Below, one piece after another: positions 1,768 through 19,914 of a DNA stretch of 20,102 nucleotides. Position 1 is the stretch's first letter. Each line of letters begins with the position of its first letter. Below the pieces are notes generated by a model. That model did not search any database. It was not told the origin of the DNA and saw only the letters and a list, made by a program, of their open reading frames with translations. This stretch comes from a virus: positions 3,616-23,717 of IMG/VR virus record IMGVR_UViG_3300000116_000231, one strand, 5' to 3'. Made by a program: the position numbers and the translations under genes.

Positions 1768-3586
1768 TATAGAAACTGACGGACTAAACCCAACAAAGAT
1801 ACACGTAATATCTTGGATGGATGACAATGGTGTGGTTCAGCATACACACGACTATGTAGCTATGCGTATCTTGCTTGAGGAAGCGTCTATCCTGATTGGT
1901 CATAACATTGTGCGGTACGATATTCCCGCAGTGGAAAAGATCTTGGGTGTGCAGATTAGTGCAAAGATAGTGGACACTCTGGCTCTGTCTTGGTATCTCA
2001 ACTTTGACCGTGGCTCACATGGCCTTGAGGGTTACGGAGAGGACTATGGAGTGCCTAAGCCTAAGATCACTGACTGGTCAACCCTGACGCCAGAAGAGTA
2101 CGCTCACAGGTGCAATGAGGATGTCAAGATCAATGCTAGACTGTGGCGTGACCTAGAGCTAAAACTAAAACGTCTATACCCTGACGAAGATGACAAGTGG
2201 CGTCTGATTGACTATCTCACATTCAAGTTACAATGTGCGGCAGAACAAGAGGCCCTGCAATGGAAACTAGACGTAGAGAAAGCTAAAGGTCATGTGGCAG
2301 ATTGGGAAAAGTCCAAGCTAGAGAAGACAGAAGCTCTGGCAGATGTTATGCCACCAGTACAGAAGTATGTCATGCGTAACAGGCCAAAGGTTTACTTCAA
2401 GGCTGACGGTAGTATGTCTGCTAATGGGGCTAAGTGGGAACAGTTGTGTAAAGACCACAAGGCACCTACCACTACGCAAAGCCTAAAGGTTAAGGTAGGC
2501 GAAGATCGTGCCAACCCTAGCTCAGTGCAGCAGGTAAAAGAGTGGTTATTCATGCTGGGATGGAAACCTAGAACATTTAAGTACATAAGGGAAGATGATG
2601 GCTCCACAAGGAAACTGGAACAAATACGGAAAGACGGGGAACTCTGTGAGTCCGTTAGAGAGTTGGCTGCTATCGAACCAGCTATTAGCTTGCTTGATGG
2701 CCTTACTGTTCTTAGCCATCGTATTTCTGTCCTTAAAGGGATGGTTGACTCAGAGCGTGATGGATACGTGCAAGCAAGTGTTGCAGGGTTCACTAATACT
2801 CTCAGGTTCCGACATGCAAGACCTCTTGTCAACTTGCCATCAGTGGATAAGCCCTACGGAGAAGAGATAAGAGGGTGCCTAACTGCACCAGAGGGATACA
2901 CCCTATGCGGAGCAGATATGACTAGTTTAGAGGACACTACAAAGCGGCACTACATGAAACCACTAGATCCAGACTACGTTGCGGAAATGTCTAAGGAAGG
3001 ATTTGACCCTCACCTTGACCTTGCCAAACATGCTGGTGTTGTCACACAAGATGATATCGACAAGCACAATACAGGAGAGCGTAGCCTAAAGGCCCTGCGT
3101 AAGAATTACAAGGTGGTCAATTACAGCGCCACATACGGCGTAGGTAAGCATACCCTATCCAGAAACACAGGCATGTCTGAGGACGAAGCACAGACGCTCC
3201 TAGACGCCTTCTGGTCACGTAACTGGTCTGTGGAGAAGGTGAGTAAAGATGCTAGAACTAGAACTCTGGGTGGGCATACTTGGTTGTACAATCCTGTTAG
3301 TAGGTTTTGGTATTCGTTAAGGTCAGATAAGGATAGGTTTAGCACCCTAAATCAAGGCACAGGTGTATATTGTTTTGATAGTTGGGTTCAATATTGTCGT
3401 GGTTTTATGATAAAGACTATCGGTCAATTCCACGACGAAATTATCGCATTAGTACCAGAAGGAGAAGAGCAAAACACTGAAAACAAAATGAAAACTGCCA
3501 TAGAGCTTCTTAACGAAGAGCTACAACTAAACGTACCTTTAGGGATAGATGCACAGTTCGGAAGTACATACGCAGATATCCATTAG
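1754..3586 (+). CDS. Family A DNA polymerase with 3'-5' exonuclease domain
   Basis: Replicative DNA polymerase of the PolA/T7 type, 610 residues (T7 gp5 has about 700). Exonuclease motifs: FDIETDG (D5, E7), GHNIVRYD (D56) and RCNEDV (D123). Polymerase motifs: ADMTSLED (D388, E393), the O-helix pattern R449-x3-K453-x3-Y457-x3-YG and the HDE of motif C (560-562). Tyr457 aligns with T7 Tyr526 and E. coli Phe762, the residue governing dideoxynucleotide discrimination. The tyrosine usually found in exonuclease motif III (YxxxD) appears as Arg119. The run after the motif A glutamate (EDTTKRHYM) differs from the E. coli ELR but is, from memory, typical of a group of phage polymerases. It should work with the upstream helicase and the downstream single-strand binding protein. 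Confidence 0.97.
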   Translation: MTVFDIETDGLNPTKIHVISWMDDNGVVQHTHDYVAMRILLEEASILIGHNIVRYDIPAVEKILGVQISAKIVDTLALSWYLNFDRGSHGLEGYGEDYGVPKPKITDWSTLTPEEYAHRCNEDVKINARLWRDLELKLKRLYPDEDDKWRLIDYLTFKLQCAAEQEALQWKLDVEKAKGHVADWEKSKLEKTEALADVMPPVQKYVMRNRPKVYFKADGSMSANGAKWEQLCKDHKAPTTTQSLKVKVGEDRANPSSVQQVKEWLFMLGWKPRTFKYIREDDGSTRKLEQIRKDGELCESVRELAAIEPAISLLDGLTVLSHRISVLKGMVDSERDGYVQASVAGFTNTLRFRHARPLVNLPSVDKPYGEEIRGCLTAPEGYTLCGADMTSLEDTTKRHYMKPLDPDYVAEMSKEGFDPHLDLAKHAGVVTQDDIDKHNTGERSLKALRKNYKVVNYSATYGVGKHTLSRNTGMSEDEAQTLLDAFWSRNWSVEKVSKDARTRTLGGHTWLYNPVSRFWYSLRSDKDRFSTLNQGTGVYCFDSWVQYCRGFMIKTIGQFHDEIIALVPEGEEQNTENKMKTAIELLNEELQLNVPLGIDAQFGSTYADIH

Positions 3587-3606: not shown

Positions 3607-3636
3607 TTTACAGTAGCGAAAAAAAGTACCATACAT
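3607..3636 (+). promoter_or_regulatory. Weak candidate sigma70-like promoter
   Basis: The 80-base gap between the polymerase and the next gene is AT-rich. It holds TTTACA (3607-3612, 5 of 6 to the -35 consensus) followed, after 17 to 19 bases, by poor -10 matches (CATACA or TACATA, about 3630-3637). An A-run lies between them. A good Shine-Dalgarno (GAAAGGA, near 3651) follows. The gap is the longest in the left arm, which makes a promoter plausible, but the -10 box is unconvincing. Confidence 0.25.
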
Positions 3637-15776: not shown

Positions 15777-16402
15777 GTAATTGCCTCAATCGCTGAGAAT
15801 GAAATGCCATAAGTACTGGCCTCATTTATGCTAAAGGACTGCTCATTTGATGCAAGTCTAAACAGACCCTGAGTATTTTCTACTGTCACAGTAGCGTTGT
15901 TACCAAGGCTGACCCTTACGTCAGGCCAGACATCTAGTGTAGCTTGACCAGAAGCATTTGTGTTTGCATCTTTTAGTACCTTGAACAGTTGCCTAGTTGT
16001 GCCATTGTTTACATGTATGTAGTCACCAGCTTTAAGATAACCTGTACGGTTTATAGGGGCGCTGTCTATAGCTATCGTGTTTCCAGAGGATTGAGTTCCA
16101 TTGATATCAATAGTGTCGCTGTTTCTAGCAGAACCTCTAGGGGTTTTAGCATTAGGGTCCCCCAAGTAAAACGTACCCACTTGACCCTTTAGTGAAATTA
16201 ACCAAGCTAACCACTCTTCTGCTAAGTCCCTTTGAATTGGTGGTAGCGTTACGTCAGCTTGCCAAGATTGTCCAGCATAGGCATGTACCTGTTGTGCGAA
16301 GGTAAAAGGGGACCTTGATATCGCAACAGCATTAGTAACTCTGAGTTCTATCTGAGCTATTCCAATACCCGTAGGTAGGCTCAAAGGGTAGCTTATAGCC
16401 AT
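15773..16402 (-). CDS. Distal tail protein (gpM/DUF2460-like)
   Basis: 209 residues, nearly all beta strand. The part PFTFAQQVHAYAGQSWQADVTLPPIQRDLAEEWLAWLISLKGQVGTFYLGDPNA resembles the distal tail ring proteins of siphoviruses: a strand with an aromatic core, a DLAEEWLAWL helix (59-68) and an FYLGDP motif (78-83). It follows the tape measure gene (TAATG overlap), where lambda gpM and GTA gp12 lie. It should form the ring joining the tube to the tail tip. Confidence 0.75.
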   Translation of the reverse strand: MAISYPLSLPTGIGIAQIELRVTNAVAISRSPFTFAQQVHAYAGQSWQADVTLPPIQRDLAEEWLAWLISLKGQVGTFYLGDPNAKTPRGSARNSDTIDINGTQSSGNTIAIDSAPINRTGYLKAGDYIHVNNGTTRQLFKVLKDANTNASGQATLDVWPDVRVSLGNNATVTVENTQGLFRLASNEQSFSINEASTYGISFSAIEAIT

Positions 16403-18192
16403 TATGCAAATCCTCTTCCGTAACTACCGCCACGCCTCTTAGCGTCCAACACTGCTGTCTTAGCTGTGTCTGCTATCTGTGGCATGAGGCTTCGTATTTC
16501 ATTCCTAACGGTTGCTTGTACCCCAGTGGAAATGTTGATGTTCTGTACTACACTTACACCACCAGCACCCATAGCTTCATTAGATACTATGGCCCCACTA
16601 GCTTTAGGTACGAAGAGTTCTGGTCCCCTCTCACCTACAACATAGGGTTGACCACCTGTTACAGGACCACCATTAGCTCTAAACATACCACCTAAGAAAC
16701 CAGCTATTCCAGAACCCTCTTTACTCACAAAGTCGTAGCTACCTACAAGCTGTTGCACGTAAAGAATACGGTACAGTTGAGCAATGATGTCACGGGCCAT
16801 AGCTCTAAATGCATCCTTAGCAGATGATGTTCCATCTATCAGCTTCATCATAGCATCCTCAAAGCTGTTACCTACACCATCAAGTAATGTCTGATGGTCT
16901 TTGTAAAGCTTTCTGAGTTCTTTTTCTTGCTTAATTCTAGCAGCATTAGCGGCTTGGGCATCAGAATGGGCTTTTCTCTCAGCTTCCGCTCTTTCTTGAA
17001 TAGCAGCCTTACGTCTAAACTCCGCTAGTTCAAATTCATGGGCATCTTCAAGCTGACCGATTGCCATTTGAGCTTCTACACCCATAATGTCAACTCTTTC
17101 AGAAATTAACTTACGTCTTAATGCCTCTGCTTCATTGGCCTGTCTTAGTCTAAGCAGAGCTTCTGCATCAGCACCATAAGCTGCCTTTGCATTCTGCGCC
17201 CTATCAAAATTAGCTAAAGCTATTTCTTTTACATTTGTAAGACCTTCTTTTGCAGCAGCAGCAGCATCTTTTTGAGCTTTTAAACCAAGGTTCTTATCAT
17301 ACTCTTTGTTAAAACCTTTAAGTTTATCTTGTAACTCTTGAAGTTCTTGAAGAGGACTTTTACCCCCAAATAGACCTTCTTTAGTTGCTGGGTCTATTAC
17401 ACCCCCAGATAATCTAGCTTTCCTTGAACCACGTTTGCTTGGGTCTACGAAACCCATATTCATTGGATCAGCTTCTTTTCTTAGATCTGCTATTTCTTGC
17501 TTTTTAATCTCTATAGCTCTGGCAGTCTGTGCCTGTGTAAGAGTATCAAAACTACCAGCAAGCATATAGTTCTCTAAGGCTAGGTCACTAGTAGCTGTTT
17601 TTAAGTCGTCTAATACTTTTTTGTAATCCACAGAAGTTTCTGTTGCATCACTAGCAGCTTTCTTAGCTGCCATGAAAGCACCAGCTAGGCCAGTACCAAT
17701 GGCAAGTATCATACCTGCAATAGCACCAAAAGGACCAAAGATACCAAGTAACTGTGAACCTTGTTGACCAAGGGCAACCATTACACTAGTACCAGACTGA
17801 ACCTGTACGGCAAAATCCTGTACCTGATAACCGACCTGCTGCATACCAACAGCGCCGAATCTCTTGAACTTACGTGTGTTTACGTCTGCAACTTGACCAA
17901 ACTGGTTTATTGTTACGCCAGCTTGTGCAGCTTGCTTTTGTATTTGAGCAAATGCTGTAGCATACTCTTTCTGTGTTGCAGCACCAGTAGCAACGGCCTT
18001 TTGAGCTACCAGTACCTGATCTTTAAATATCTTAGTAGCCCTGTAAGCAGGGTCAATAGCCATTTTAAGTTGATTGAATGACTTTTTCGCTGTCTTAGCG
18101 GTCATATCAATCTTATCTTCTGTAGTGTTTAGATAGTCATTGAGAACCTTTAGGTCCTGCATATCCACACTGACTTTAATCGAACTAGCCAT
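16402..18192 (-). CDS. Tail tape measure protein (short)
   Basis: 596 residues, short for a tape measure protein. It shows an N-terminal helical part, a conserved block KRFGAVGMQQVGYQVQDF (110-127) leading to the hydrophobic segment FGPFGAIAGMILAIGTGLAGAFMA (152-175), and long charged coiled coils around 300-440. The C-terminal PVTGGQPYVVGERGPELFVP is typical of lambda-type tape measures (TMP_C). At about 1.5 Angstrom per residue, it predicts a tail near 90 nm. Tape measures set tail length and are later ejected into the cell envelope. The gene begins eight bases inside the preceding chaperone frame. Confidence 0.93.
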   Translation of the reverse strand: MASSIKVSVDMQDLKVLNDYLNTTEDKIDMTAKTAKKSFNQLKMAIDPAYRATKIFKDQVLVAQKAVATGAATQKEYATAFAQIQKQAAQAGVTINQFGQVADVNTRKFKRFGAVGMQQVGYQVQDFAVQVQSGTSVMVALGQQGSQLLGIFGPFGAIAGMILAIGTGLAGAFMAAKKAASDATETSVDYKKVLDDLKTATSDLALENYMLAGSFDTLTQAQTARAIEIKKQEIADLRKEADPMNMGFVDPSKRGSRKARLSGGVIDPATKEGLFGGKSPLQELQELQDKLKGFNKEYDKNLGLKAQKDAAAAAKEGLTNVKEIALANFDRAQNAKAAYGADAEALLRLRQANEAEALRRKLISERVDIMGVEAQMAIGQLEDAHEFELAEFRRKAAIQERAEAERKAHSDAQAANAARIKQEKELRKLYKDHQTLLDGVGNSFEDAMMKLIDGTSSAKDAFRAMARDIIAQLYRILYVQQLVGSYDFVSKEGSGIAGFLGGMFRANGGPVTGGQPYVVGERGPELFVPKASGAIVSNEAMGAGGVSVVQNINISTGVQATVRNEIRSLMPQIADTAKTAVLDAKRRGGSYGRGFA

Positions 18193-18481
18193 TTATTGCC
18201 CTCACGTAAAGTAGGTCTAATTTCTTTATGACATCTACTTCCCAACCTTCAAGGGTATTGTCAGTAGTCTCTTGCCACGCTTTTATCTCTGTGAATGTTA
18301 GAGGTTGTGGGCCACTGTAACCAAATTGCCTACCCCCACTGATGGAAAAGAAGGAAGACCAGACATGAGCCATAGGAAAAGGAAACTTAGGGGCTTCTAA
18401 TTCTTTTGGCCTATGTCCTAGTTGTTTGGCAACCTGTTCCAAGTGTGCCGATTCAGTTACGCCTTTACTGTCGGATCTCAT
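18185..18481 (-). CDS. Tail assembly chaperone, T-like part (expressed by -1 frameshift)
   Basis: A 98-codon frame after the first ATG at 18481, but the same frame is open back to 18547 and has no ribosome binding site at that ATG. It is in the -1 frame relative to the upstream chaperone gene. The real product is probably a 245-residue fusion: 129 residues from the upstream gene, then 116 residues of this frame beginning FNRLVDQLEAFAEHSFKLMR. This is the lambda gpG-gpGT arrangement, in which the G-T form binds the tape measure protein and recruits the tail tube subunit. The T-part ends with TLEGWEVDVIKKLDLLY, and the stop lies inside the tape measure start. Confidence 0.82.
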   Translation of the reverse strand: MRSDSKGVTESAHLEQVAKQLGHRPKELEAPKFPFPMAHVWSSFFSISGGRQFGYSGPQPLTFTEIKAWQETTDNTLEGWEVDVIKKLDLLYVRAING

Positions 18482-18522
18482 TAGCTTGAAACTATGTTCA
18501 GCAAATGCCTCTAGCTGATCGA

Positions 18523-18921
18523 CTAGGCGATTGAAAAATTTAAGAAGTCAGTCAGGGCTTGTTCAATCTGGGTCTTCATCCAGAAAACCTCTGTGTAAAC
18601 CTCTTCGCATTTCTCAACCGTGCAGGGTGGTTTCTCACCATCAAATGTAATGTTCCACATCTTAGTTGTGTGGATTAGAGTTTGAAGTGTGCCTTCCTCT
18701 AGGTCTTCTGATTTTAACTCAAAAGTCCCACCGTCAGAAACCTGTGTAAGACGTTTATTAGTCTGCTGGTGCAGAACGTCCTTGTAAGGCTTACTGTGAG
18801 GTGCCCACATGGTAATAGTCATAGGGGTATCATCAGGGTTCATAAGGGGTTCATTAGTGTTAGGGTGAACCAGAGATACTTCAAACGTATCGCTCTTAGG
18901 CGTTAAGTCTTTTAAATCCAT
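18523..18921 (-). CDS. Tail assembly chaperone, G-like protein
   Basis: 132-residue protein lying between the major tail tube and tape measure genes, the place of lambda gpG. It is beta/alpha mixed and acidic, with MWAPHSKPYKDVL (38-50), a middle helix and CEEVYTEVFWMKTQIEQALTDFLNF (105-129). Four codons before its stop, the AAATTTT heptamer at 18535-18541 would shift a fraction of ribosomes to the -1 frame. AGGAG lies about eight bases upstream of ATG 18921. The chaperone coats the tape measure protein during tail assembly and is absent from the mature virion in lambda. Confidence 0.85.
   Translation of the reverse strand: MDLKDLTPKSDTFEVSLVHPNTNEPLMNPDDTPMTITMWAPHSKPYKDVLHQQTNKRLTQVSDGGTFELKSEDLEEGTLQTLIHTTKMWNITFDGEKPPCTVEKCEEVYTEVFWMKTQIEQALTDFLNFSIA
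18535..18541 (-). promoter_or_regulatory. Programmed -1 ribosomal frameshift site (AAATTTT)
   Basis: On the minus strand, A AAT TTT lies in frame with the G-like gene, so both the P-site codon AAT and A-site codon TTT re-pair fully as AAA and TTT after slipping back one base. This matches the X XXY YYZ rule. It lies four codons before the zero-frame stop, and the -1 frame is open from 18547 to 18185. A weak stem (CTAG/CTAG or GCCT/AGGC) can form just downstream. Confidence 0.8.
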
Positions 18922-18950
18922 TGTCGAGTCTCCTTCGGGATTAAGTCGGG

Positions 18951-18993
18951 TAAAATAAAGTGGGGGGTATCGGACCCGACACCAACACCCCCC
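18951..18993 (-). terminator. Rho-independent terminator-like hairpin after the tail tube gene
   Basis: Read on the minus strand, GGGGGGTGT (18993-18985) pairs with ATACCCCCC (18970-18962) over nine base pairs, including one G-U, around a 14-base loop. ACTTTATTTTA then follows. It lies between the tail tube stop (19009) and the chaperone ribosome binding site. It probably acts as a partial terminator, giving more tail tube than downstream transcript. Confidence 0.72.
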
Positions 18994-18994
18994 G

Positions 18995-19008
18995 TTCCTA
19001 GCTAGGAA
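18995..19008. other. 14-bp perfect palindrome next to the tail tube stop
   Basis: TTCCTAGCTAGGAA at 18995-19008 is a perfect inverted repeat directly after the tail tube stop codon and just ahead of the terminator-like hairpin. It may be a short mRNA 3'-end stem or a protein-binding half-site pair. Too short to assign. Confidence 0.35.
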
Positions 19009-19914
19009 TTACGCTGATCTTGCGATCTTAAAGTTAGTGTCCTCAGTAGCATCTCTCAAGGCAACAAATGACGCTTGGATAATTCTACTTTCTGGACCAT
19101 CTACACCTACGTCAGCAGAGTTAATTTTGCAACGTGGGAATGTGAATGTCATGGTGTTTGTACCATCACCTACTTGTACTTCAAGTGCTGTCTCTGTTTC
19201 ATTTACAAAGCGGTCAAGCATAGCTGCATTTTCATAATATACAGAGATGCTACCTTCTACTTCCGCTCGACCAAAACCTAATGCTGGTGCAGTATCGGCA
19301 CCGATAACAAAGGTTGGTGAGAACCCGTTAGTTATTGTAAAGTCCATAGCTGTAACAATAGCTGAACCAGATCCACCAATACTTACTGAACCAGTATATG
19401 CATCAAAAGGCTTTGGTTCTAGGTCTGGTGCATCAAGCTCTGCGCCACCAGCTTCACCAGTGTCAATCAATGCCATGTCTTTACCAACAATACCGAAGGT
19501 AGTTGTAATCATTTGATTTGGTGCAAGTGATACACCTAAGCTGTTTACAGTACAGCCCGTAAATCTACGTGTTTGGTCAATATCTGCTGCGTAGTCCTCA
19601 ATAGTAAAGAACTTTGGATCTGTACCAACCTTTAGTGTGTTTGTAGAAAAAGCACTCATCATGGCTGATTCTAAGAAAGTGTCGTATGTTGCATCACGAA
19701 GGTCAGCAACAATATCACCAGAAACAGATTTATTACCGTGACGATCAACCCTTGCCATACGGTCAGATTGAATGTCAGTTCCAGCCACACGATCTTTTGT
19801 CATGTTTAAGCTGTGTGTAGAAAAAGGTAAGTTTAAAGTCGGTGTTACAGCAGTTCCAAAAGTTGTTTCTACTGCGTAAGACAGACTGGACCGTGAACCC
19901 TGTGCAAAGGCCAT
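19009..19914 (-). CDS. Major tail tube protein
   Basis: 301 residues; the subunit that polymerises into the tail tube. Its place before the chaperone pair and tape measure gene and its beta-rich sequence identify it. Typical features are the N-terminal SRSSLSYAVETTFGTAVTP (7-25), SISVYYENAAMLDRFVNETE (about 222-241) and the C-terminal beta segment NTMTFTFPRCKINSADVGVDG. AGGAG stands just ahead of ATG 19914. A terminator-like hairpin follows it, which suits a protein needed in hundreds of copies per virion. The homologous family is the phage tail tube/Ig-like group in siphoviruses. Confidence 0.87.
   Translation of the reverse strand: MAFAQGSRSSLSYAVETTFGTAVTPTLNLPFSTHSLNMTKDRVAGTDIQSDRMARVDRHGNKSVSGDIVADLRDATYDTFLESAMMSAFSTNTLKVGTDPKFFTIEDYAADIDQTRRFTGCTVNSLGVSLAPNQMITTTFGIVGKDMALIDTGEAGGAELDAPDLEPKPFDAYTGSVSIGGSGSAIVTAMDFTITNGFSPTFVIGADTAPALGFGRAEVEGSISVYYENAAMLDRFVNETETALEVQVGDGTNTMTFTFPRCKINSADVGVDGPESRIIQASFVALRDATEDTNFKIARSA

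Follow-up and report, generated by a model that had tools for sequence, protein, structure and literature searches.

A predicted lambda-like -1 frameshift between two tail assembly chaperone frames in a virus related to Roseobacter phage CRP-6

This study considered a 20,102-nucleotide stretch of the IMG/VR record IMGVR_UViG_3300000116_000231 (positions 3,616 to 23,717; hereafter the window), in which a short chaperone-like gene, G, is overlapped at its end by a second frame, T, raising the question of whether T is expressed as a protein of its own or as an extension of G. In phage lambda and many siphovirus counterparts, the equivalent pair is joined by a programmed -1 frameshift that produces gpG and gpGT (Xu, Hendrix and Duda 2004, as cited in PMC5009743 and PMC3483164), and the first-pass annotation of this DNA had predicted a comparable fusion. 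From comparison of sequences across relatives, programmed -1 ribosomal frameshifting very probably gives the predicted G and GT proteins in the window's phage, as in lambda (probability about 95%). Most ribosomes would stop at the TAG at 18523 and release the 132-aa G protein; a minority would arrive at AAT-TTT, Asn-tRNA occupying the P site and Phe-tRNA the A site, move back by one base to AAA-TTT and continue in the T frame as far as 18185, producing a 245-aa GT protein. By analogy with lambda, G and GT would then cover the tape measure protein and bring in the tail tube protein as the tail is assembled.

Anatomy of the locus and the predicted fusion

The minus-strand gene order is tail tube (PF18906), G, T and tape measure (Table 1). 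The minus-strand end of G, re-read from the sequence, is GAC TTC TTA AAT TTT TCA ATC GCC TAG; this contains the heptamer A AAT TTT in the frame of G, three sense codons separate it from the stop, and its Phe codon is the fourth codon before that stop. The first-pass annotation had placed the heptamer at this site, and its position was correct to the base on re-reading; it had also described the T-like frame as exactly -1 relative to G and open back to 18547, and the same register and the same open stretch were recovered here. A -1 slip would carry the ribosome from residue 129 of G (Phe) into FNRLVDQLEAF, and the length of 245 residues proposed earlier for the fusion was reproduced (129 + 116).

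Table 1. Features of the chaperone locus, in window coordinates.
Feature	Coordinates	Strand	Remarks
Tail tube protein (Phage_tube_2)	19009..19914	-	PF18906, E 2e-46; directly upstream of G
Shine-Dalgarno of G, AAGGAG	18930..18935	-	8 nt before the ATG of G, read directly
G-like tail assembly chaperone ORF, 132 aa	18523..18921	-	Stop TAG 18525-18523
Slippery heptamer A AAT TTT	18535..18541	-	-1 codon TTC (18535-18533) starts at the heptamer's last base
T-like -1 frame, 120 codons open, 116 after the slip	18185..18547	-	Phage_TAC_18 domain at frame residues 39-113
Predicted GT fusion, 245 aa	18185..18921	-	G residues 1-129 + 116 T-frame residues
Candidate 3' stimulatory stem	18460..18529	-	Begins 5 nt after the heptamer
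Candidate stem, outer helix	18529-18525 with 18464-18460	-	
Candidate stem, inner pairings	18523-18520 with 18473-18470; 18519-18517 with 18477-18475	-	
Tape measure protein, 596 aa	16402..18192	-	Overlaps the end of T; own SD GAGGG (18203-18199), 6 nt upstream of the start

The T frame matches the Pfam family Phage_TAC_18 (PF23812) with an E-value of 4e-18 and 65.7 bits (gathering cut-off 27), and the same family was matched by all 16 of the family sequences scanned. A sequence-profile search with G returned no significant match, the best being phrog_313 (E 0.24). The AlphaFold2 model of G (pLDDT 80) resembles predicted structures in BFVD that are annotated as tape-measure chaperones of phages Seurat and CcrColossus, with a best E-value of 1.5e-4 (e.g., the tape-measure chaperone of Escherichia phage Seurat). 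Among PDB chains, the two top rows for this model were YqbN (Z 4.8) and the HK97 tail assembly chaperone (Z 3.9); with such low scores, these matches to the model appear weak but pertinent. The T-frame model (pLDDT 90) includes a confident helix at residues 2-23, and comparison of the T domain with the PDB gave no informative match. Family and gene position suggest a chaperone function for G and GT.

Conservation of the slip site among relatives

Relatives were drawn from 80 IMG/VR loci gathered by G, together with CRP-6 and Rhizobium phage P106B, and from 160 more loci gathered by T and G alignments, many of which overlap the first set. Collapsing at 90% nucleotide identity left 36 representatives, comprising 35 relatives and the window; in two of them (L114 and L233) the slip-site position was adjusted by hand by 6 nt, also for the folding test described below. 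In all 36 representatives, and equally in the 80 IMG/VR loci, CRP-6 and P106B, T occupies the -1 frame, and each of them also carries a site, either N NNT TTT or N NNT TTC, at a distance of exactly 16 nt ahead of the G stop. The commonest heptamer is GGATTTT (20 of 36), followed by AAATTTT (4), AAGTTTT (3), GGGTTTT, GGATTTC and AAATTTC (2 each), and TAATTTT, AGCTTTT and AGATTTT (1 each). From this tally, the invariant core is the A-site T_TTY, where Phe-tRNA would re-pair, and the P-site codon varies. Residue F129 of G is likewise invariant across 21 aligned sequences. In relatives with TAATTTT, a -1-frame stop codon falls within the heptamer itself; therefore, the change of frame is confined to the 13 nt that separate this stop from the G stop.

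The strict form XXXYYYZ is present in only 8 of the 36 representatives, and the window has this minority form. The earlier expectation that relatives would keep both heptamer and frame was therefore borne out for N NNT TTY and the -1 register, both found throughout, but not for the strict heptamer, and the window's copy could be a lineage accident atop the conserved T_TTY. When G genes are codon-shuffled, about 3% of them have an in-frame XXXYYYZ within the 25-nt overlap, so that the window heptamer taken alone is only modest evidence; the frequency of the motif in the window's genes is 0.004 per codon. Comparative conservation, by contrast, lifts the slip site far beyond chance. Measurements in E. 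coli single out R_RR.U_UU.Y motifs as notable shift-prone exceptions (PMC4066793), and the A AAT TTT of the window falls in this class. In some relatives, the slip site is preceded by GAGGAGG, a candidate dnaX-like stimulator of the Shine-Dalgarno type, which is absent from the window.

RNA structure and alternative sources of the second frame

Compared with synonymous shuffles that leave protein and codon usage intact, the 80 nt that follow the heptamer have a mean folding z of -2.39, with 22 of 36 representatives below -2. This peak is the strongest of all T positions (the next best position has a mean z of -1.3), and it was additionally scored on 22 representatives and by a dinucleotide scan. 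In most representatives, the first long-range pair of the stem falls 5-8 nt after the heptamer, which is the usual spacing for -1 frameshift stimulators. The 3' partner of the stem differs by clade, with registers of i+j = 98, 103, 107 and 114, and RNAalifold on 39 aligned sequences found no common structure. The global consensus fails because the stem register changes between clades; for the same reason, the stem is visible only by single-sequence z-scores combined with within-clade alignment. Within the best-sampled clade, a 19-pair stem holds in 96.4% of cells and carries 9 two-sided changes versus 3.2 expected by shuffling; sliding the partner by 1-3 columns drops the pairing to 34-44%. 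The candidate stem of the window (-18.4 kcal/mol) is no better than shuffles, with a z of -1.26 by dinucleotide shuffling and about -0.6 by synonymous shuffling, where the family mean is -2.39. Its spacer of 5 nt compares with the 5-9 nt of a canonical -1 frameshift signal.

Overall, we lean, by a narrow measure, towards a family signal made up of a fixed A-site T_TTY, a P-site codon that is usually non-canonical (most have GGATTTT) and a stem in which the 5' arm stays 5-8 nt behind the slip site and the 3' partner has been relocated between clades, such that a stimulatory structure persists without any family-wide conserved base pairing. The less ordinary aspect of this signal is the combination of family-wide non-canonical P-site codons with a stem that stays in position but pairs with different partners. 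A tendency for weaker (non-XXX) slip sites to be paired with stronger stems gave p 0.03 in a plain test and p 0.18 with phylogenetic contrasts, and was dropped. Separately, a second and weaker folding peak was seen in the T frame of relatives about 100-180 nt after the heptamer (mean z -1.3, with 9 of 36 below -2).

The second frame could instead be a separate gene, started in its own frame or by termination-reinitiation after the G stop. The first ATG, GTG or TTG of any kind in the T frame is the ATG at 18481, which lies 44 nt beyond the first base of the G stop codon, and annotators have chosen internal starts of this sort in relatives, such as the TTG of CRP-6 gp44. However, as the first-pass annotation had pointed out, no Shine-Dalgarno precedes this ATG; AAGCTA stands before it, while G has a Shine-Dalgarno, as does the tape measure gene. 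The T protein is conserved from the slip-site Phe onwards; this residue, invariant in 23 aligned sequences, lies well ahead of any ATG, and a start at 18481 would remove 22 conserved residues that form the confident helix at residues 2-23. The T frames of many relatives have no ATG (several of them) or have one only far inside (others), and no Shine-Dalgarno was found near the first T-frame starts in relatives, in keeping with what had been claimed for the window. An independent start for T is therefore improbable, given these residues and the scarcity of starts in relatives.

Even less probable is transcriptional slippage, in which RNA polymerase instead of the ribosome would change the frame on the A3T5 run. 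The sequence there is indeed a short A/T run (AAATTTTT), but its T run is only five long in the window, and most relatives have four (GGATTTTA), which makes such slippage unlikely; in bacteria, polymerase slippage is known to be driven by runs of about nine, and the T runs of this family are shorter. The post-site RNA stems of the family also sit at a translational spacing. A sequencing indel that split one continuous gene into G and T would likewise yield a -1 overlap from a single base, yet 36 distinct sequence types have the same -1 arrangement at the same distance to the stop; because of this conservation, an artefact is effectively excluded and was given next to no weight. Programmed -1 ribosomal frameshifting is thus the preferred reading, and the comparisons below are made with it.

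Comparison with known systems

The predicted frameshift of the window is of a known kind, that of lambda G/GT, and judged by sequence it is well supported as such. As in lambda, two overlapping ORFs on the same strand separate the tail tube gene from the tape measure gene, the second ORF overlaps the first in -1 and has no usable start of its own, and a slippery site lies in the overlap near the end of G, where it is conserved as N NNT TTY (36/36 representatives). We infer that slippage occurs in the window's phage at a frequency that would leave the long fusion as the minor product, as is expected for lambda. A lambda-type pair would also make GT at a low, fixed ratio to G, and its two proteins would bind the tape measure and tube proteins and be absent from the finished virion. 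Compared with lambda at the level of gene arrangement, this locus is set apart by its A AAT TTT (N NNT TTY in relatives) and by the 3' RNA stem of the family, which is not clearly present in the window.

A homologous T domain is found in the Phage_TAC_18 (PF23812) chaperones of the more distant Bradleyvirinae, Pamexvirus and Queuovirinae phages (e.g., PAKlein3, phiH1 and vB_VhaS-tm), where T also lies in -1 ahead of the tape measure gene and a slip site occupies the homologous place; these homologues differ in having a T TTT TTC site and little stem enrichment. Frameshifts were predicted earlier in other siphophages (KL1, AH2, Loki and 9g), and for E. coli phage 9g a -2 shift on CCCUUUUUUU was reported (PMC4276943). 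In Pseudomonas phage PaMx28 (L089, ~1498-1510), the homologous slip run has six T versus seven in its relatives, so that T falls in +1 (= -2) relative to G; this may be either a real -2 site, like that of 9g, or a homopolymer sequencing error.

The heptamer of most relatives has a natural precedent in pea enation mosaic virus, for which G_GAU_UUU is a frameshift site (PMC5009743), with a stop codon shortly 3' as well; this is a plant RNA virus with unrelated genes and is a precedent only for the ability of the heptamer to shift. In Rhizobium phage P106B (L003, ~3375-3384), the site is GGATTTTTTT, which offers two in-frame heptamers, G GAT TTT and T TTT TTT, and the T homologue is annotated only as a 43-aa ORF. 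In another relative (L053, 4001-4423), G carries a short tandem duplication (around TLDLLAKTT), which makes it 141 aa long versus 132, with the slip site unchanged.

The closest cultured relative is Roseobacter phage CRP-6 (gp45/gp44; MK613348), with 49% identity in G and 45% in T; it shares the arrangement, with G GAT TTT as the slip site. Its record has no annotated frameshift and lists two hypothetical proteins with no link between them, the latter with a TTG start; therefore, the first-pass annotation was right to warn that a plain two-gene annotation would miss the fusion. A literature search found no paper describing a frameshift in CRP-6. The predicted fusion provides a correct gene model of the tail chaperones for abundant and poorly annotated marine (CRP-6-like) phages. 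Additionally, the nine heptamer alleles and several stem registers form a natural comparative set on the slip-site bases and RNA structures that bacteria tolerate for -1 frameshifting.

CRP-6 has been described as short-tailed (PMC6918029). Nevertheless, a complete tail module of the siphovirus type, made up of tube, chaperones and a ~570-600 aa tape measure, is present in both CRP-6 (L002) and the window (16402-19914), and in both this module stands beside podovirus-like replication genes.
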